Positions 21,657 to 30,480 of a stretch of 64,000 nt of DNA are shown here, one piece after another; position 1 is the stretch's first letter; the number at the start of each line of letters is the position of its first letter. Source of the stretch: Fibrobacter sp. UWB10 (GTDB lineage: Bacteria > Fibrobacterota > Fibrobacteria > Fibrobacterales > Fibrobacteraceae); contig NZ_FXUE01000001.1 in the NCBI RefSeq assembly GCF_900182935.1, positions 620,001-684,000 on the forward strand, in the 5' to 3' direction. The notes under the pieces were generated by a model. The model saw only the letters and a list, made by a program, of their open reading frames with translations. It did not search any database and was not told the DNA's origin. The translations under genes and the position numbers were made by a program.

Positions 21657-23549
21657 CTATTCGTCCTTAATGCAACGGATAAAGCCTTCATTCGGCAGGT
21701 CAAAATAATTTTTAACCTCATGATACCTGTTGGCATTATACATTCTTGAATAAAATGCATAAATAATCGATCCATAAACTCCCTGAATTGCATATTCGTA
21801 CCCAGAGTCGCGAGAATCTTCAGCCAACACCTTCGGCGTAAACAGATAAGGAACCTTTCTGACAAGTATTTTATACCAGTCGGAACTTCCACGAACTTCA
21901 GCAACAAAATCCATGCCAAATCCTATCGGATTACCATAACCCGAGAGCAAGTAATTCAATTCTTCACCCGGTTCCACATCGAAGTGTTCCCTCAGGTACA
22001 TAAACAGCGTTATCCAATCTTCGTAACGGGGCACACGCCAACCTTCCGGGCACACATCAAGATTCAAGACGTTCAACGAATCAACTACCTTTTCCCAATC
22101 CACACTATAGGGATCCTTCGTATAATCGCCTTCATTGAAAAGACCGTCACATTCCTCCCGAGCCTGTTCCGCCCAGAACAAAGTGTCATCCGACATAGCA
22201 TCCGTCAAATATTCAACCGTTTTAAAGGTTGCACATTCTTCCTTGGAATTATACTTCCTGTAAGACGAATCCAAACCCGACACAAACGAATAGATGCGAC
22301 CATAGGTAGAACAATATGACATTTCCCCTACAACAGATTCCTCCCTGAAACAGCTAGAGTTTTCAGTTTCATAGTTCAAATTTTCTGCCATCCAAGTCTG
22401 CGTTACATCTCCCAAATCCAGCTGCACAGTCTTGTAAGTCTTGCCATCTCGAGAATCAGTCATCGTCCCAAACGCATGAGCAACGTTCACCTTGTTCGCC
22501 TTGCGGAAGGTCAAATTCCAAGTATCCGATTCGCATTTCAATTCATACATTTCGCTAGAGATGCTAGCAAGCTCCCCTTCTCTTTCAGACGAGCAGCCTC
22601 CATAACCAAACACGGATGCAAGCAGGTTGGCAAAATAAGCCCGTTTTTGCAAGCATTCTTGATAATACAAAGCAAAGCTATCTCCAAGTCTTTCAAAAGC
22701 ACGCGGGGTTACTTGCAAAATAGTGAATATATGCGATGATTCAACGCCTTTAGCCAAAGATTTCTTTGTATCTTCCGAAATACCGGCATCAGTTCCCGTC
22801 CCACCAAATTCTCTATTCAGGGTAGCCAACAAACCAAATGAGACAATCTCGTTGAACGTCTTGCGCCACAAAGCAGCCGGCGACGAACTGGTCAGATTCG
22901 CACCAAGGAATGGGTTTTGCGGGCCAAAGCCGAACACATTTGCAATTTCAGTTTCAGTCTGAGCCTTCGCCGCCGTAAACGACATTCCCGATTCAACCAG
23001 TTTCTGCATGCGATAGGCCGCCAAATGACTCAAACCATCAATTTCAAAAGCATTTGTATCCCGGACATTCACAACCGCATTCAACGATATTCCACCCGAT
23101 ACGGCTTCCAACAAGACAATCGAGCTCCTCAGCGAAACACTATCAAAATGGACCATTCCATCGTCACCAGGAATCAATTCTCCCGTAAGCGTATCTTCGG
23201 TATTCCCCTTAAAAGACACCGTAATCGCGCTGTCGTTCAACGGTTCAAGCGTCACAGAATCTAGTTCCGTAAGAACAATCTGCCCGCCATTAGCGAAAAT
23301 ATTCGTCGGAATTGAAACAACAACATCTCCAGACGAACCACCTCCATTATTTGCCGACGCATAATACGCTCGAGCACGAATCGACGCTATAATATTCGGC
23401 TCTTCCGAGGAACCGCCCATTTCCACACCGGGATCACCTTCCGTTTTAGAAATCGCGTTTTCGTTGTCAGTGGAACAAGCCGCGAACATCAAGGCGAGCG
23501 GCATCGCCATTTTGCAGGCAAACTGCTTTGTGATTTTTTTGTAATTCAT
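21657..23549 (-). CDS. FISUMP-domain lipoprotein, module 2
   Basis: 630 aa. Lipobox LMFAAC as in module 1, then a divergent region with GGSSEEPN and ARAYYASA shared with module 1, a helical segment HLAAYRMQKLVESGMSFTAAKAQTETE, and the FISUMP domain (about 360-630: DSRDGKTYKTVQ, QTWMAENLNYETENSSCFRE, YCSTYGRIYSF, CPEGWRVPRYEDW, GFIRCIKDE). Several paired cysteines suggest disulfides in an exported protein. Translation is coupled to the upstream TIGR02147 gene through a GGAGGAT site overlapping its stop. Confidence 0.9.
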   Translation of the reverse strand: MNYKKITKQFACKMAMPLALMFAACSTDNENAISKTEGDPGVEMGGSSEEPNIIASIRARAYYASANNGGGSSGDVVVSIPTNIFANGGQIVLTELDSVTLEPLNDSAITVSFKGNTEDTLTGELIPGDDGMVHFDSVSLRSSIVLLEAVSGGISLNAVVNVRDTNAFEIDGLSHLAAYRMQKLVESGMSFTAAKAQTETEIANVFGFGPQNPFLGANLTSSSPAALWRKTFNEIVSFGLLATLNREFGGTGTDAGISEDTKKSLAKGVESSHIFTILQVTPRAFERLGDSFALYYQECLQKRAYFANLLASVFGYGGCSSEREGELASISSEMYELKCESDTWNLTFRKANKVNVAHAFGTMTDSRDGKTYKTVQLDLGDVTQTWMAENLNYETENSSCFREESVVGEMSYCSTYGRIYSFVSGLDSSYRKYNSKEECATFKTVEYLTDAMSDDTLFWAEQAREECDGLFNEGDYTKDPYSVDWEKVVDSLNVLNLDVCPEGWRVPRYEDWITLFMYLREHFDVEPGEELNYLLSGYGNPIGFGMDFVAEVRGSSDWYKILVRKVPYLFTPKVLAEDSRDSGYEYAIQGVYGSIIYAFYSRMYNANRYHEVKNYFDLPNEGFIRCIKDE

Positions 23550-23558
23550 GGTATCCTC

Positions 23559-24389
23559 CTAACCCTTTTTAGAACCCTTGTTTGTCATGGGGAAAAACTG
23601 GATGTTCAGGCGGTACACCTCATCCGTTTCAGTTTCCCTAGTAGCAATTTCAATCACACGCTTGCGGAACGCATTGATTTCCGCGACAATTTCATCGTAG
23701 GCGGCCTGCGTAATGCCCAAGGTCACGCCCGAAAAGTGGCGTTCGTTTTGCGGCACGCCCTCGATCGTATCAAGCGCAAGTTCACCCATTTGGCGATGCA
23801 GGCCGCGAATCACAGCGGGAGTCACTTCCATGGGTCCGGCCGTAATCGACCTGTCCGTCTGCACATAATTGCCGTTTTCATCTTTCTGGAGCATATTCGC
23901 CTTCACCAGAAAGTTCAGCGAATCGCTGACTTCGGCAGCGGTAATTTTAGGACGGCACGCTTTTGCTAGTGCTAACGGTTTTGCCCCGGGCATGGCAGGC
24001 GCCAGTTCACGGAGCACGGGATTTTTCCAGCTGTCAAAATAGCGAAATGCATCGGCCTCGATCACTTTCGCCTTGCGACTTTCCGCCATTGCCACCAACT
24101 TCTGGAAAGATTCCTTTTTGGCCTTGTCCGTCTTGGCATGGTCAAAGCAAACCATCTCGCGGAAAAATTCAAGGTCGCTACCAGACAAGTGCATTGCCGC
24201 GGCAACACGATCGACAGCCGCTTCGCTCAAGTTGAAGCGACCCTCGCTCACATATTTTAGGTAGACTGGCGAAGAAAATCCCGCCGCAGAAGCAAACTCC
24301 GGCCAAGTAAACGCAGATTTCGCCTTTTTGTCAGCGTAATAGTCCGCGATATACTGACGGTAGCTCGTATATTCAAGTATATCTTTCAT
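23559..24389 (-). CDS. TIGR02147 (DUF4423) family protein, module 2
   Basis: 276 aa, co-linear with the module 1 and 3 copies. Same start MKDILEYTSYRQYIADYYA and GGAGGACAA ribosome site; HTH-like segment AFTWPEFASAAGFSSPVYLKYVSEGRFNL; conserved PAMPGAKPLALA and NERHFSGVTLGIT. Differences from copy 1 are mostly in the helix after the HTH and around residues 80-115. Probable transcriptional or signalling partner of the lipoprotein gene downstream (inference). Confidence 0.88.
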   Translation of the reverse strand: MKDILEYTSYRQYIADYYADKKAKSAFTWPEFASAAGFSSPVYLKYVSEGRFNLSEAAVDRVAAAMHLSGSDLEFFREMVCFDHAKTDKAKKESFQKLVAMAESRKAKVIEADAFRYFDSWKNPVLRELAPAMPGAKPLALAKACRPKITAAEVSDSLNFLVKANMLQKDENGNYVQTDRSITAGPMEVTPAVIRGLHRQMGELALDTIEGVPQNERHFSGVTLGITQAAYDEIVAEINAFRKRVIEIATRETETDEVYRLNIQFFPMTNKGSKKG

Positions 24390-24399
24390 TTGTCCTCCT

Positions 24400-24431
24400 C
24401 TTAACCCCCCGAAAACTCGGCCCAAGCTAAG
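24400..24431 (-). promoter_or_regulatory. 5' leader hairpin of module 2
   Basis: Same fold as at 21332: outer stem CTTAGC / GTTAAG, in which a G-C pair of copy 1 has become G-U, and an identical inner stem CCGA-GTTT-TCGG. It abuts the ribosome site. Confidence 0.55.
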
Positions 24432-24440
24432 TACACTCCA

Positions 24441-24469
24441 AATATAAACAATGATTTTTCAAAAGTCAA
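24441..24469 (-). promoter_or_regulatory. Promoter of module 2
   Basis: TTGACT (24469-24464), 17-bp spacer, TATATT (24446-24441), extended as TATATTTGG, which also matches the TAnnTTTG box. Confidence 0.8.
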
Positions 24470-24586
24470 TAGTTTTTACAATAAATTTTTCACTAAATTT
24501 CTAAAATTTAAGCATTTTACAGAATTTTATATAAAAAATCACAATTTTTCACAATAAACAGAATTTAAGTTCACACACAAAAAAAA

Positions 24587-24610
24587 GAAGGCAGACCGAA
24601 GTCCACCTTC
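24587..24610 (-). terminator. Terminator of FISUMP module 3
   Basis: Minus strand GAAGGTGGAC TTCG GTCTGCCTTC followed by eight T. Two wobble pairs inside a 10-bp stem; homologous to the module 1 and 2 terminators. Confidence 0.85.
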
Positions 24611-24634
24611 TTTTCCTCCTAACCGCCAAGCCCA

Positions 24635-26467
24635 CTATTCATTTTTGATGCAGCGAACGTTCACATACCTATCTAATTGTTCATTCAATCGGAACGCTCC
24701 AATCCAGTCTATTTTCAAATTAAGAGCAAATTCAAGAATATACACATTTTCTTCATAGGCCATCACTTTTTCAGTTTCCGCTTCCGGGCGTACAATAAAT
24801 CGTTCTGCGGTTACCGGCCCAAAACCAAGCCCAGGCAATTCACGCACGCCCATCTTCCAGTTTTGATTAACATCTTCAACAATTTCTCCCGTGGTTCTAT
24901 ATGCCTGTTTAAACAAATTAGCCCAATCTTCAATTTTAGGAATCCGCCATCCGTCTGGGCACAACCCCTGATAATGTCCGTTCACAGCCTCAACGGAATC
25001 CAATATGGCGAAGACTTTTTCAGAATTAATACTACCGCTGTCCGTATAAACGAGAGCAGAATCCAAGCCTAGAGCATCAAACCACTTATACCTGACAAAA
25101 CTACTCCAATACGCAGAATCAACGTAGAAAATCCAGTCATCCCTGTCGCTCTTCAGCGAATCAAGCCAAATCAAACTATCGTTCGGCGAATCAAACGAAC
25201 CGTGATAAATCCTAGCAATATGCAATTCTTGCTCCCGATAAGCCTTCACCGATTCAATAGCAGCACTATCAAGAACCGCAGTCACACCTTCACCACTATA
25301 AACCAAATTTTCCATCATCCAAGTTTGAGATCCACTTTCTATTTCATATGTAACAGTCCTATAGGTTTTTCCATCACGGGGATCGGTCATAGTTCCTTCC
25401 GTACGAGGCATATCTTCCCTTACCATTCGGAAAGCCGAAGCAATCCAGTCATTAGGCTTACATTTTATTTTCAAATCCAATTCAGAACCTAAATAGGTAA
25501 TCACCAACGAATCGCCTTCTTTTTCATCGGTACATCTGCCAACGCCGTACAAACTAGACAGGAAATTACCGAACAAAGCTCTTTCTGCATTCGTTATATC
25601 TTTCCATGTACCACCATCGTAATGGCGTTCAGACCACAGTTCACCTGCCGGATATTCAACACATTTCGTCTTGATAGAATCCGTCAAGTTTGCAAAAGTG
25701 CCGGAATTTCCAAAGTCCGCAATTTCTTTTTTATCTAGGCACGAATAATTTGTTTCAACAAATACACTCACAAAACTTAAGATTTCCCGGCCCTCCTTAC
25801 TGCCAGCATATTCACCATCGCCAAACCGGAAAGACTCATCATAGAAACCAAAAGCTTCCATTACCTCTCGACCCGCTTGCGACCTTGCCTCTTCAAAGCT
25901 CTGTCCCTGCTTAACTAAACTTCGCAAACGAGTTGCTTCCAAAGTTGTCAACACATTAATATCCACATTCTTCGTTTCACGCAAATTAACGATAATACGA
26001 TATATGAACCTTTCATTAAAAGCTATTAAACTTTCCAATCCAAGATCTATCAAAGTATCAAGCGAAGCCCACCAATTTTCACCATTTCCTACGGGAGATA
26101 GTTCAAGTAAAACATACGGACTTTTCAAATTGACACTATCAAAAGAAAATACACCTGACGCATTCGTAACCGAACTATAATATATATTATCGGTTGTATC
26201 AAATGTCACCGAATCCAATTCAACCATCCTTACCATATGCCCTTGCCAAATACTGCTACTTATTGAAGGCGAGCCTCCAGATCCTAGCACTCGACCGGCC
26301 AAGGCATAAACACCCGTTTCTTCTTCGGCGCCCCCGAACGGTACCGCCGGGGAATCATCCAAACGAGCATCAACATGGCTATCATCCATAGAGCAAGCCG
26401 CGAACATCAAGGCGAGCGGCATCGCCATTTTGCAGACAATCTGTTCTGCCATTTTTACATAGTTCAT
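24635..26467 (-). CDS. FISUMP-domain lipoprotein, module 3 (most divergent)
   Basis: 610 aa. Same signal peptide and lipobox LMFAAC (N-terminal DNA almost identical to modules 1 and 2). The ectodomain differs more: a Gly/Ser-rich GSGGSPSISSS stretch, a longer region with CLDKKEI, and a segment TLEATRLRSLVKQGQSFEEARSQAG equivalent to that in the sister proteins. The FISUMP domain (about 370-610) keeps TDPRDGKTYRTV, QTWMMENLVYSG, CPDGWRIPKIEDW and VRCIKNE, but lacks the CFR...YGRLYS box found in modules 1 and 2, so this domain has partly diverged. Coupled to the upstream TIGR02147 gene. Confidence 0.87.
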   Translation of the reverse strand: MNYVKMAEQIVCKMAMPLALMFAACSMDDSHVDARLDDSPAVPFGGAEEETGVYALAGRVLGSGGSPSISSSIWQGHMVRMVELDSVTFDTTDNIYYSSVTNASGVFSFDSVNLKSPYVLLELSPVGNGENWWASLDTLIDLGLESLIAFNERFIYRIIVNLRETKNVDINVLTTLEATRLRSLVKQGQSFEEARSQAGREVMEAFGFYDESFRFGDGEYAGSKEGREILSFVSVFVETNYSCLDKKEIADFGNSGTFANLTDSIKTKCVEYPAGELWSERHYDGGTWKDITNAERALFGNFLSSLYGVGRCTDEKEGDSLVITYLGSELDLKIKCKPNDWIASAFRMVREDMPRTEGTMTDPRDGKTYRTVTYEIESGSQTWMMENLVYSGEGVTAVLDSAAIESVKAYREQELHIARIYHGSFDSPNDSLIWLDSLKSDRDDWIFYVDSAYWSSFVRYKWFDALGLDSALVYTDSGSINSEKVFAILDSVEAVNGHYQGLCPDGWRIPKIEDWANLFKQAYRTTGEIVEDVNQNWKMGVRELPGLGFGPVTAERFIVRPEAETEKVMAYEENVYILEFALNLKIDWIGAFRLNEQLDRYVNVRCIKNE

Positions 26468-26476
26468 GGTAGCCTC

Positions 26477-27310
26477 CTAACCCTTTTTTGAACCATTAAT
26501 GTTTGTCATCGGGAAGAACTGCATGTTCAGACGGTAAACTTCATCTGTCGCAGAATCTTCAGTGGCAATCGCGATAATTTCTTTGCGGAACTCGGCAATC
26601 CGCTTCACGATTTTTTCGTAGGCCGTGCGAGTAATGCCAAGCGTAAGGCCCGAAAAATGGCGTTCGTTTTGCGGCACGCCCTCAATTGCTTCAAGCGCAA
26701 GTTCACCCATCTGGCGATGAAGTCCACGGATCGCGAGCGGCGTAAATTCCATGGGACCGGTCGTCACGACCTTATCGGTCTGCGTATAATTTCCATCTTC
26801 GTTTTTCTGAAGCAAGTTCGCCTTGATCAAGAAATTCAATGACTCGGTCACTTCGGCTGCAGAAACCTTAGGGCGACACGCCTTTGCAAGCGAAAGCGGC
26901 TTTGCCCCTGGCATGGCAGGGGCCAGTTCACGGAGCACCGGCTTTTTCCAGTCTTCAAAGAAGCGGAACGATTCCGCATCTACTACCTTCGCCTTGTGAG
27001 CCTCGCCGATAGAAACCATCTTGCTGAATGCGGCTCGTTTTTCAGCATCGGTCTTTGCATGGTCGAACTTGACCATTTCGACAAAGAACTCGCGTTCGTA
27101 ATCAGCAAGGTGCATCAGACGCGCCATGCGGTCTGCTGCGGCCTCGCTCAAATTAAAGCGGCCCTCGCTTACATATTTAAGGTAAACCGGCGAAGAAAAG
27201 CCCGCCGAAGCAGCAAACTCCTGCCAGGTGAATGCGGATTTCGCCTTTCTGTCGGCGTAATAGTCCGCGATATACTGACGGTAGTTCGTGTATTCAAGTA
27301 TATCTTTCAT
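26477..27310 (-). CDS. TIGR02147 (DUF4423) family protein, module 3
   Basis: 277 aa. MKDILEYTNYRQYIADYYADRK start after GGAGGATAA, HTH-like AFTWQEFAASAGFSSPVYLKYVSEGRFNL, then the family's conserved PAMPGAKPLSLA and NERHFSGLTLGIT. One residue longer near the C-terminus (MTNINGSKKG). First module in transcription order on the minus strand, though each module appears to have its own promoter and terminator. Confidence 0.88.
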   Translation of the reverse strand: MKDILEYTNYRQYIADYYADRKAKSAFTWQEFAASAGFSSPVYLKYVSEGRFNLSEAAADRMARLMHLADYEREFFVEMVKFDHAKTDAEKRAAFSKMVSIGEAHKAKVVDAESFRFFEDWKKPVLRELAPAMPGAKPLSLAKACRPKVSAAEVTESLNFLIKANLLQKNEDGNYTQTDKVVTTGPMEFTPLAIRGLHRQMGELALEAIEGVPQNERHFSGLTLGITRTAYEKIVKRIAEFRKEIIAIATEDSATDEVYRLNMQFFPMTNINGSKKG

Positions 27311-27318
27311 TTATCCTC

Positions 27319-27348
27319 CTCTTTGTCCCCGAAACACGGGTTCAAACT
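27319..27348 (-). promoter_or_regulatory. 5' leader hairpin of module 3
   Basis: Minus strand: TTTG-AA-CCCG-TGTTT-CGGG-GA-CAAA, that is TTTG pairs with CAAA and CCCG with CGGG around a two-by-two internal loop. The sequence differs from modules 1 and 2, but the position next to the AGGAGG site and the two-stem shape are kept. Confidence 0.5.
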
Positions 27349-27360
27349 GACCACGTTTTA

Positions 27361-27389
27361 AATATAAGTAATAAATTTTCAAAAATCAA
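27361..27389 (-). promoter_or_regulatory. Promoter of module 3
   Basis: TTGATT (27389-27384), 17-bp spacer, TATATT (27366-27361). One mismatch to the other two modules in the -35 box. Confidence 0.75.
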
Positions 27390-27499
27390 TAGTTTTACAA
27401 TATTTTTTATTTATTTTTATAAAAATTTTAAAGATTTATCAGAATAATTGAAAAATTAGTAGTTTTCACAATATAAAATTAATCTAAAAGTCAATTTAC

Positions 27500-27622
27500 C
27501 ACACGGATTGGATTTTACTAACGTAAAATCTAATAGGTCTCATTTCAACAATTGTGCAAGAAAAAAATTCTCTAATATTTATTATAAAAAGGGAAAAACG
27601 TTAGTTTTTCCGAATCCGTGTG
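27500..27622. repeat. Inverted pair of hairpins with complementary loops (novel element)
   Basis: Outer arms CACACGGATT (27500-27509) and AATCCGTGTG (27613-27622) are perfect inverted repeats. Inside each arm is a perfect 8-bp hairpin: GATTTTAC-TAAC-GTAAAATC (27511-27530) and GGAAAAAC-GTTA-GTTTTTCC (27592-27611). The loops TAAC and GTTA are complementary. Reverse-complementing the right half gives the same unit as the left half, with the stem bases changed but the pairing kept. The 61-bp centre is AT-rich and noncoding. It could be a BIME/REP-like or other single-strand mobile element, or a structured RNA. Confidence 0.8.
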
Positions 27623-27655
27623 ACCCCATTAAGCACTTGCAAATAGAATTCTATA

Positions 27656-27663
27656 TAAATTTG
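27656..27663 (+). promoter_or_regulatory. TAAATTTG box directly before GSCFA gene
   Basis: TAAATTTG ends 4 bp before the ATG at 27668 and no Shine-Dalgarno is present. This implies a leaderless or nearly leaderless transcript. Confidence 0.55.
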
Positions 27664-27667
27664 GCGT

Positions 27668-28645
27668 ATGAACTTTTTCACGAAAATTGACATCCCCGCC
27701 GCAGACTTTAAAATCGACTACACGAGTCGTTTAGCATTTTTCGGATCGTGCTTTGCGGACAATATTTCGGCGCAGTTCGCATCGCGCAAGTTCAACGTGC
27801 TTGCAAACCCCTTCGGCACCGTCTACAACCCGGTTTCGCTGGCGAGCCAGATCAAGGCGATCGCCGACGGGAAAGTTTTCGGAGAAGAAGATGTTTTTCA
27901 GGACACGCGATGCGACGGGCTTTGGCACTGTTGGGACGCACATAGTTCGCTTTCGGGCACGACAAAAGAAGAATGTATCGGCAAGCTGAATGCCGCGGCA
28001 ACACAAGCCCGCGATTTTTTGCAGAAGGCAAGCGTCATCTTTATCACGCTCGGATCCGCGTTTGTCTACTATTTAAAAAACAGCGGCAAACCCGTAGCGA
28101 ATTGTCACCGGCAAGACCCGAATCTGTTCACGCGCCGAATGATTTCGATCGACGAAGCAACCGAAGCCATCCACGGAATCGCCACAAGCATTCGTCAACT
28201 GAATCAAAATGTACACATCGTCTTTACCGTGTCGCCGATCAGGCACCTAGGCGATGGCGCCCATGGGAACAATCTTTCCAAGGCGACGGTACTGCTCGCC
28301 ATCAACAAAGAGATTGCCACGTCGCCGTTGGCACCTCGCAATAACACCGTTGATTACTTCCCGAGTTACGAAATCGTGATGGACGAACTTCGAGACTATC
28401 GCTTTTACGCCGACGATATGGTTCATTTGTCCAAAATCGCCGAAGACTACATCTTTGTGCGCATGGCCGAAACCTACTGCGACAGCACCACTCGCGAAAA
28501 CATGGCGAAAGTGGAAAAGTTCTTGAAAATGGCCAACCACCGTATTCAAGACGAGAGCTCCCCCGCCACGCAGGAACTCAAGAAGAAACTTGCAACGCAA
28601 GCCGCAGAACTCGAAAGACAGATTATGGGATTGAAGTTAGGCTAA
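27668..28645 (+). CDS. GSCFA-domain protein (SGNH-like)
   Basis: 325 aa, cytoplasmic, no signal peptide. Contains the name-giving motif FFGSCFADNIS near residue 25, then VLANPFGTVYNP, a catalytic-looking FITLGSAFVY and FTVSPIRHLGDG typical of the GSCFA family (Pfam GSCFA), whose members resemble GDSL/SGNH esterases but have no established substrate. A C-terminal helix-rich tail (about 275-325) is coiled-coil-prone. Starts 4 bp after a TAAATTTG promoter box. Confidence 0.85.
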   Translation: MNFFTKIDIPAADFKIDYTSRLAFFGSCFADNISAQFASRKFNVLANPFGTVYNPVSLASQIKAIADGKVFGEEDVFQDTRCDGLWHCWDAHSSLSGTTKEECIGKLNAAATQARDFLQKASVIFITLGSAFVYYLKNSGKPVANCHRQDPNLFTRRMISIDEATEAIHGIATSIRQLNQNVHIVFTVSPIRHLGDGAHGNNLSKATVLLAINKEIATSPLAPRNNTVDYFPSYEIVMDELRDYRFYADDMVHLSKIAEDYIFVRMAETYCDSTTRENMAKVEKFLKMANHRIQDESSPATQELKKKLATQAAELERQIMGLKLG

Positions 28646-28710
28646 AAAAAATTTTTGCGTTAGCAAAATCGAATCAGTGTGGACTTTTATTCTTTCTAGC
28701 ACACATCAAA

Positions 28711-28740
28711 GGAGATGCCGGGTCTGTGCCCGGCATGACA
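28711..28740 (+). repeat. Dispersed palindromic repeat, type I
   Basis: GGAGATGCCGGG TCTGTG CCCGGCATGACA; perfect 8-bp arms (28715-28722, 28729-28736). Same GAGATGC...GCATGACA frame as at 17640 with a different GC core, so the arms have co-varied. Confidence 0.7.
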
Positions 28741-28867
28741 GCGGGAGATAAATGCCCAAAGGCGGAGGAAAGTAAGTCGGCGAGCGAACATTAGAGGCCG
28801 AAGGCCGAATCCATGTGAGCGAGTCGAGCTTACATTCTGGAGCCATGGGCATTTTGATTTTGTGGCC

Positions 28868-28950
28868 TTTTGGGGTTTTAGGGGCGGGCCCCTAGGCGAG
28901 GGGGTAGGCAAAGACTACGGGCTTTGCCGAGGGGGAGACTTCCCCCTTTT
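28868..28950 (+). repeat. GC-rich intergenic repeat, type III, copy 1
   Basis: About 83 bp that aligns by eye with the reverse complement of 34863-34944. Shared blocks include GGGG..TTA.GGGG, CCCC, GGGGTAG, CGAGGGG and ACTT.CCCCTT. Short stems such as GGGCGGGCCCC are possible. Noncoding. Confidence 0.55.
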
Positions 28951-29018
28951 AGCCTAAAAAACGGAACTTTTGGTTTCACTTTGTTTACATCTTTTGCAGT
29001 CATTTTTGATTATTTTAT

Positions 29019-29034
29019 ACACGAGTGATCGTGT
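29019..29034. promoter_or_regulatory. Palindromic operator-like site before xylanase gene
   Basis: ACACGA-GTGA-TCGTGT, 6-bp perfect arms, 25 bp before the ATG and overlapping or just after the probable transcription start (TTTTATAC at 29013). Candidate regulator site. Confidence 0.4.
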
Positions 29035-29058
29035 GGGGCGATAAAATAAGGAGAAGTA

Positions 29059-30480
29059 ATGATGAGCAATCATTCCATTGCGGGTTTCGCATTGTGCGCG
29101 ACCCTTCTCGGTGCAGGCCTCACAAGCGCCGTCGCTGCAGATGAAACACTCAGGTCACTGGCAGACAAAAACAACATCTATATCGGCGCCATTCTGAACT
29201 CGCAGTGGTTCGGCGGCGGTCTTCCCGGAAACTACGAACAAATTCACAAGACGCAGTTCAACATCGTCGTTGCTGAAAACGAGATGAAGTTCGACGCCAC
29301 CGAACCGAGCGAAAACCGTTTCAACTACAATAACGGCGACAAGATGGTCAAGTACGCGAAGCAGAACGGCATGCGTGTCCGTGGCCATGCCCTCGCCTGG
29401 CACAGCCAGGTTCCGAACTGGGTGAACAACTACAAGAACGACAAAAAGAAACTTCTCAGCGTGCTCAAGAACCACATCAACAACGTGGTCGGGCACTGGA
29501 AAGGCCAGGTGGATGAATGGGACGTGGTGAACGAGGCCATCAGCAACAACGAACCCCAATGGCGTTCCTATTCCGTGTGGTACCAGGGAATCGGCCCCGA
29601 ATTTATCGACTCCGCCTTCGTGTGGGCGCACGCCGCCGACCCCAACGCGGAGCTCTGCTACAACGACTACAACCTGGAACAGGGCATCAACCCGAAAGCC
29701 AAGGCAGGCTTTTTGCTGGAACAGGTGAAACGCTGGGTCGCAAACGGCATTCCTATCCATTGCGTGGGCTCGCAAACTCACGTGGAAGACACCACCACCG
29801 ACAAGCACTTTATCGGCTCGCCGGACAGCCTGCGTTCCCTTGCCAAGGAACTTGCAAAACTCAACATCAAGCTGAAAATCACCGAACTCGATATCGGATT
29901 CAAGAGCGGCATCAACGTGAGCAAGAGCGATCTTGAACGCCAAGGCCAGACTTTCCGCCAGTACCTGGACATCATCCTTGAAGAACCGAATGCGGACACC
30001 TACCTGATTTGGGGCGTTTCTGATAAATGGAGTTGGCTTGGCGGCCTGAACAGGCAAAAAGGTCTCATTTACGACGACAACTTGCAACCGAAACCGGCAT
30101 TCGACAGCATCTTGGTGAGACTTAAGACGTATGAACCGCCGCAGGATACGGTAAAGCAGGACACTACGAAAACCGACACGACTAAAACGGATACAACCAA
30201 GACAGACACCACCAAGACAGACACGACATCGAACGATTCTACCATCGCAATCAAGACGATTGCAGGCTTGAACTCTCTCTCGATGCACCTCTCTGGCCGC
30301 ACGCTCTCTATTGCAGGCGCCACCGCCGCCAAGGTCGATGTGTTCGACATGCAGGGCCGCCCGGTATTCAGCGCGAAAAACGTGAAGGGTTCTATAGACT
30401 TGAAGATTGCCGAAGGCATGTACGTGGTTCGCGTGCGCGACGGCTCCAAGAGCCTGATGCAAAGAATTGTGCTCAAGTAA
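29059..30480 (+). CDS. GH10 endo-1,4-beta-xylanase with C-terminal sorting-like tail
   Basis: 473 aa, secreted. Signal peptide 1-27 (ending SAVAA), GH10 catalytic barrel about 30-365, Thr/Lys/Asp linker with repeated TTKTD units about 375-400, and a C-terminal beta domain about 405-473 resembling T9SS type A sorting domains (VDVFDMQGRPVFSA..IDLKIAEGMYVVRV..RIVLK). Catalytic residues: acid/base E159 in WDVVNEA and nucleophile E276 in ITELDIG. Hydrolyses xylan backbone. AAGGAG ribosome site; the second Met is an equal start. Duplicated in the next gene. Confidence 0.94.
   Translation: MMSNHSIAGFALCATLLGAGLTSAVAADETLRSLADKNNIYIGAILNSQWFGGGLPGNYEQIHKTQFNIVVAENEMKFDATEPSENRFNYNNGDKMVKYAKQNGMRVRGHALAWHSQVPNWVNNYKNDKKKLLSVLKNHINNVVGHWKGQVDEWDVVNEAISNNEPQWRSYSVWYQGIGPEFIDSAFVWAHAADPNAELCYNDYNLEQGINPKAKAGFLLEQVKRWVANGIPIHCVGSQTHVEDTTTDKHFIGSPDSLRSLAKELAKLNIKLKITELDIGFKSGINVSKSDLERQGQTFRQYLDIILEEPNADTYLIWGVSDKWSWLGGLNRQKGLIYDDNLQPKPAFDSILVRLKTYEPPQDTVKQDTTKTDTTKTDTTKTDTTKTDTTSNDSTIAIKTIAGLNSLSMHLSGRTLSIAGATAAKVDVFDMQGRPVFSAKNVKGSIDLKIAEGMYVVRVRDGSKSLMQRIVLK

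Follow-up and report, generated by a model that had tools for sequence, protein, structure and literature searches.

The 64,000-nucleotide stretch of Fibrobacter sp. UWB10 DNA analyzed here (the window) contains, between two genes, a pair of inverted hairpins whose layout raises two questions: what kind of element is this, and what enzyme, if any, multiplies it? Both the sequence and an inverted-repeat search bear out its earlier description as two inverted halves, each with a 10-bp arm and a perfect 8-bp hairpin with a 4-nt loop. In each of the two inverted units, 27500-27530 and 27592-27622, a head (CACACGGATT) is separated by a single base from a perfect 8-bp hairpin that has the loop TAAC. 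The features are as follows:

27500..27509, plus strand: left head CACACGGATT, the core of the terminal inverted repeat (sequence, inverted-repeat search)
27511..27530, plus strand: left hairpin, stem GATTTTAC/GTAAAATC, loop TAAC, an end of the 'Y' class (inverted-repeat search, stem classes)
27531..27591, no strand: spacer of 61 bp between the hairpins, unconserved among copies (about 50 aligned elements)
27592..27611, minus strand: right hairpin, stem GGAAAAAC/GTTTTTCC, loop TAAC on the minus strand (GTTA on the plus strand), an end of the 'R' class
27613..27622, minus strand: right head, the inverted copy of CACACGGATT (sequence, inverted-repeat search)
28653..28681, minus strand: third, solo unit, head CACACTGATT with one mismatch, hairpin TTTTGC-TAAC-GCAAAA

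The pair is intergenic, lying between the starts of a minus-strand gene (27310) and a plus-strand gene (27668), and the solo unit lies directly past the stop of the gene downstream of the pair. The earlier note had described the arms as unrepeated in the window; this holds for exact copies but not for the solo unit with its single head mismatch. The loops are complementary, as the proposal that they might kiss assumed, though this is a trivial consequence of the inversion and the proposal gained no further support. As single-stranded DNA, the element folds into a base stem and two hairpins (z ~ -3.4 for either strand). On the minus-strand side, positions 21657-27310 hold two similar tandem gene pairs, each coding for a lipoprotein of 610-630 aa and a putative regulator of 277-288 aa, the pairs being mutually paralogous. 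Another recurrent repeat of the genome, CTCACATGGATTCGGCCTTCGGCCTCTAATGTTCGCTCGCC, occurs at 28808-28817 (minus strand) and at L028:82 and L030.

A chance arrangement, the deflationary reading raised at the outset, is excluded by copy number: the host genome (G000; 3.48 Mb, 10 contigs) contains the 10-mer head 46 times, versus once for a reversed control. The longer pattern CACACGGATT-N8-CTAACG was found 29 times in G000 and 31 times in G094 of the same species, and is present in 17 of 80 Fibrobacter genomes versus none for the control. The advice to look for further copies in Fibrobacter was thus well rewarded, both within the genus and beyond it, with a contig scan recovering at least 120 stretches, mainly from Treponema, with others from further Spirochaetales, Fibrobacter and metagenome-assembled genomes (MAGs) of Neisseriaceae. 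Among the matches listed, the Treponema isolates include T. bryantii NK4A124, T. bryantii XBD1002 and T. saccharophilum DSM 2985, most sources are rumen or gut, and at least 7 of the 8 stem pairs form in 111 of 120, versus no more than 5 of 8 in the 20 chance matches from viral contigs that served as a control. The window pair is one of dozens of genome copies of a mobile-looking repeat common to rumen bacteria of different phyla. Pattern matches in Oscillospiraceae, Deltaproteobacteria and Magasanikbacteria have no hairpin and are probably due to chance. In some copies (L009, L012, L018, L022, L026, L051 and L032, the last being the ortholog of the window site in G003), a second, foldable repeat of about 70-75 bp, GTACTAAAGTACTAAATGC...GCATTTAT, is nested exactly between head and hairpin.

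The covariation of the stems, first claimed from the window pair, is a property of the whole family. Across 246 unique pattern matches, chosen without a stem filter, the inner pairs 13-30 to 18-25 are about 97% Watson-Crick, compared to 30-60% after shuffling of one side, and G.T pairs make up less than 1%. As this complementarity is maintained over 62 distinct stems, the hairpin structure is under selection. Such hairpins could act in transcripts, in processing, stability or termination, with no DNA mobility involved, a reading with which stem conservation, the position of copies past stop codons and the location of gene-carrying copies in operons would all agree. However, RNA helices usually tolerate G-U, and the scarcity of G.T in these helices suggests that DNA rather than RNA is the selected form. 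An RNA role also sits poorly with the nuclease gene that the ends enclose in the longer copies described below, with the presence or absence of copies in conserved operons, with decay at the window locus in relatives, and with Rfam, which gave no model match up to E = 1 in window positions 26000-29500. We thus regard it as very improbable that the hairpins are RNA elements.

The consensus of 287 units comprises the core RYCACACGGATTSG followed by the hairpin, with the loop TAAC in 274 of them and variation mainly at its second base (TNAC); immediately outside the unit, ATTGY is favored at both ends. Variant hairpins at L259 and L269 have a loop shortened to CTACG with the stem still perfect. 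Integron attC sites, which have the core RYYYAAC, were considered and dropped: the loop TAAC is unfit for that core and no integrase was seen. The stems were grouped into a 'Y' class (GATTTTNC) and an 'R' class (GRNNNNNC). Among 75 non-redundant inverted pairs, 64 are R/Y, 11 are R/R and none is Y/Y, and identical stems within a pair were never observed versus 8.6 expected (p ~1e-9). Element pairs have two distinct, unlike ends. The base adjoining the head is the same on both sides (C/C or T/T) more frequently than by chance. The length distribution of the pairs has its peak at 70-90 bp and another cluster at 445-475 bp, and the spacers of the short form are mutually unrelated in about 50 aligned elements.

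Inspection of the copies for target sites, another step that had been recommended, uncovered no target duplication: none of the 75 pairs has one at width 3 and above, and widths 1-2 show no excess. This bears on whether the repeats are classical MITEs of a DDE insertion sequence, from which terminal inverted repeats and intergenic copies would be expected. In addition to the lack of duplication, the interiors are unconserved, the variation of spacers and stems among copies is unusual for simple MITE copying, and the only gene within the short and medium elements codes for a PD-(D/E)XK protein. A MITE origin is therefore exceedingly improbable.

The likeness to REP/BIME elements drawn in the earlier note stands: the repeat is an inverted palindromic doublet, intergenic and multicopy, with conserved ends, a variable middle and compensatory stem changes. 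REPINs are likewise inverted palindromic doublets with a variable spacer and compensatory stem changes (PMC3116915), and REPIN/REP doublets with their RAYTs (IS200/IS605-like Y1 transposases; PMC3116915, PMC8266576) also share the intergenic location, high copy number, conserved ends and clover-like fold, with the REPtron providing a parallel for a gene-bearing version with the same ends. In contrast to these systems, the head here is CACACGGATT rather than GTAG, the associated gene is a PD-(D/E)XK GxxExxY gene rather than an HUH/Y1 gene, the two ends are of unlike stem class, and the repeat is spread across phyla. Thus, although the layout is alike, these repeats fall outside the REP/REPIN class proper, having no GTAG tag and, in the Fibrobacter genomes searched, no Y1 partner.

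The accompanying suggestion, mobilization by a Y1 (TnpA-REP/RAYT) transposase, draws on the same REPIN-like layout, variable spacer and compensatory changes, but gained no support from a search for the enzyme. Y1_Tnp (PF01797) is absent from the repeat-bearing genomes G003, G005, G009 and G018; the single Y1 gene of G000 has no head closer than about 1.5 kb, nor do heads occur near the Fibrobacter Y1 genes searched; the 287-unit consensus has no GTAG tag at the hairpin foot; and the element interior is occupied by the PD-(D/E)XK gene. We consider a Y1 mover quite improbable. There is a precedent for palindromic repeats without a Y1 partner in the CGTC-tagged REPs, which are reported to have no dedicated transposase (PMC3733652); they differ in that the unit consensus here has no CGTC tag and a candidate enzyme gene was found. 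A non-RAYT partner of a REP-like doublet therefore bears on an open question stated for those repeats.

This candidate emerges from the 440-480-bp versions, in which the same ends surround exactly one ORF, coding for a GxxExxY protein. One such ORF is present in the 447-475-bp intervals of L103 and L148 (Fibrobacter), L150 and L212 (Treponema and Spirochaetia), L215 and L261, and in L212 and L150 its stop codon falls inside the conserved loop (CGT-TAG). The long-form proteins belong to the GxxExxY family (TIGR04256; PF13366, PDDEXK_3), which is annotated without a function; their family scores (TIGR04256, PF13366) are 150.7 and 149.6 bits versus a curated cut-off of 35, and 141.4 and 139.7 versus one of 22. 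Nine intervals bounded by inverted units measure 250-600 bp: GxxExxY is present in eight, once as a fragment, and the ninth lacks any ORF of at least 80 codons; none of the nine has another ORF. The complete plasmid pTS1 of T. saccharophilum carries the GxxExxY gene with both ends. At the level of genomes, PF13366 is found in 6 of 80 Fibrobacter genomes, all six within the 17 repeat carriers (Fisher 4e-5, kinship ignored), and in 12 of 24 further repeat-bearing genomes. The gene is missing from half of the repeat-bearing genomes tested, including G000 and both T. bryantii isolates. Since the gene carriers in Fibrobacter and Neisseriaceae are mostly MAGs, binning errors are possible for them; pTS1 and DSM 2985 come from isolates.

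The gene-bearing form recalls IS200/IS605, which are likewise small single-gene elements with subterminal hairpins and no target duplication. Unlike those, it has perfect terminal inverted repeats, unlike ends and a PD-(D/E)XK gene (PF13366/TIGR04256) in place of Y1.

Phylogenetic analysis showed that ends and protein go together. A tree of 62 family members groups the 17 proteins whose ends are CACACGG or the related CAAACGG in a single clade (94/97), with the CAAACGG-end type as a nested subclade. Among the flanks inspected, such ends accompany all 17 proteins inside the clade and none of the 45 outside it (Fisher p = 2e-13 with L326 and L328 counted as ends-bearing and kinship ignored). The flanks of L326 and L328, labelled B in the tree, show false matches of a loose pattern. 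The related end type, CAAACGGATTTG...CTAACG, surrounds a GxxExxY subclade at L262, L263, L273, L341 and L222, with L222 being a hybrid of the two end types. At L261/L279, L263 and L273, two different end types occur with GxxExxY genes at an apparently identical intergenic site in different Treponema. Several other GxxExxY copies sit in putative restriction-modification operons, as read from the sequence.

The GxxExxY protein has 127-129 aa, with D68 and E78-x-K80 invariant in eight proteins, in agreement with the D...ExK motif of PD-(D/E)XK nucleases. A Foldseek search with a structure model (pLDDT 85.9, pTM 0.80) retrieved SSO0001 (4ic1), which we take to be a Cas4 protein, as the nearest PDB fold, followed by lambda exonuclease. 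A second structural comparison gave Z 9.6 for 4ic1 and less than 8 for all others, including Hjc resolvases; PDB folds at Z 6-7 were not read as relatives, and a PDB sequence search with the protein returned no relative. The Cas4/lambda exonuclease-like PD-(D/E)XK nucleases are thus the closest solved folds, the protein here being smaller. The modelled fold fits a DNA nuclease, a similarity that leaves the substrate unproven, and the predicted nuclease probably acts on the ends of the element.

Comparison of related genomes revealed orthologous sites at which some carry a copy and others lack it. T. bryantii NK4A124 has a copy of 73 bp right after the stop codon between two sugar-acid genes (presumably kdgA and kdgK), where the junction in XBD1002 is only a few bases. 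Likewise, the spacers between what we take to be hisG and hisB measure 14-123 bp without and 536-701 bp with the GxxExxY gene. The copy at the window site is common to G000, G094 and G003, with an extra insert within it in G003; G009, G052 and G071 apparently retain decayed remnants, and other relatives have nothing. An exact empty site was sought in relatives for the window copy, where the intergenic sequence is too diverged, and for a G094-specific copy, where the breakpoints lie outside the element; neither search found one, and no type-A element yielded a clean, base-exact pair of empty and filled sites. Most copy sites are common to G000 and G094, with no recent movement evident from this pair. 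PF13366 has a patchy distribution in Spirochaetia: it occurs in 46 of 148 genomes, in as many as 15 copies, and fragments are numerous. The GxxExxY copies are codirectional with both neighbors in 30 cases and opposed to both in 5. A phage origin was discarded, as phage records and viral contigs gave no GxxExxY match and the viral pattern matches lack the hairpin.

The main rival to a role of the nuclease is that GxxExxY is a passenger, and that the ends owe their movement or multiplication to a different enzyme or to host replication or recombination, for example, to template switching at palindromes. The absence of the gene from half of the repeat-bearing genomes favors this, as does the way in which stems change on both sides together with few G.T intermediates, as would result from one arm being copied from the other. 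Further, some intervals hold lipoprotein genes instead: in Fibrobacter, these lie between inverted units about 1.0-1.5 kb apart (L040:1527-2501, L048:2061-3206, L084:57-1524, L295:2185-3618) and may be cargo or coincidence; the ends may therefore at times flank other genes. On the other hand, GxxExxY is the sole kind of ORF in the nine 250-600-bp intervals, end type co-segregates with the protein clade, and the elements have no other gene in common. On this evidence, we judge a mere passenger role to be rather unlikely.

We therefore favor as the probable explanation that the window feature is a non-autonomous, REPIN-like doublet of a single-gene element, the ends of which are most likely acted upon by the PD-(D/E)XK nuclease. 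The full element, of about 450 bp, would comprise nothing but one GxxExxY gene and, on either side of it, a terminal inverted repeat with a hairpin (core RYCACACGGATTSG, hairpin loop TNAC). From the position of the gene, the clade-wide linkage and the fold, we infer that the nuclease is the mover: it would recognize the heads and the extruded hairpins of a matched, unlike pair ('Y' GATTTTNC, 'R' GRNNNNNC) in single-stranded or cruciform DNA and cut at these ends. The excised or copied DNA would then enter intergenic sites, often past stop codons, with no target duplication. Short, ends-only versions would use the same enzyme in trans and may persist after gene loss; the window copy, whose genome lacks the gene, would be one of these.

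A wider possibility, to which we would give slightly less than even chances, is that all GxxExxY (PDDEXK_3) genes are the sole genes of widespread tiny mobile elements: each would have a Cas4-like nuclease as its only mover and iterated or hairpin terminal repeats, enter operons past stop codons, leave no target duplication, and shed REPIN-like ends-only copies across phyla. A test for terminal inverted repeats at all GxxExxY loci placed only 14 of 70 above the 99% null, which itself includes related ends, and the claim for the family at large is therefore tentative. Elsewhere in the family, at L280 (Bacteroides finegoldii), L270, L264, L265, L351, L339, L356, L334 and L331, the GxxExxY gene lies between inverted repeats of iterated motifs of about 10 bp, such as CACAGAGGA, CACAGATTA, GGACAGGAT and CACGAAA.

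The literature searched, which left most subscription papers outside, contains no description of such an element or its repeats, nor of GxxExxY/PF13366/TIGR04256/PDDEXK_3 in a mobile element, suggesting a kind of mobile DNA element undescribed there. Bacterial genomes commonly contain REPIN-like repeats; here one is tied to a gene of a different enzyme superfamily, and for a family annotated by its motif alone a concrete role can be proposed that is open to testing on defined DNA substrates. If the nuclease moves the element, it would represent a new enzyme class among the few bacterial transposition chemistries and a very small autonomous element.
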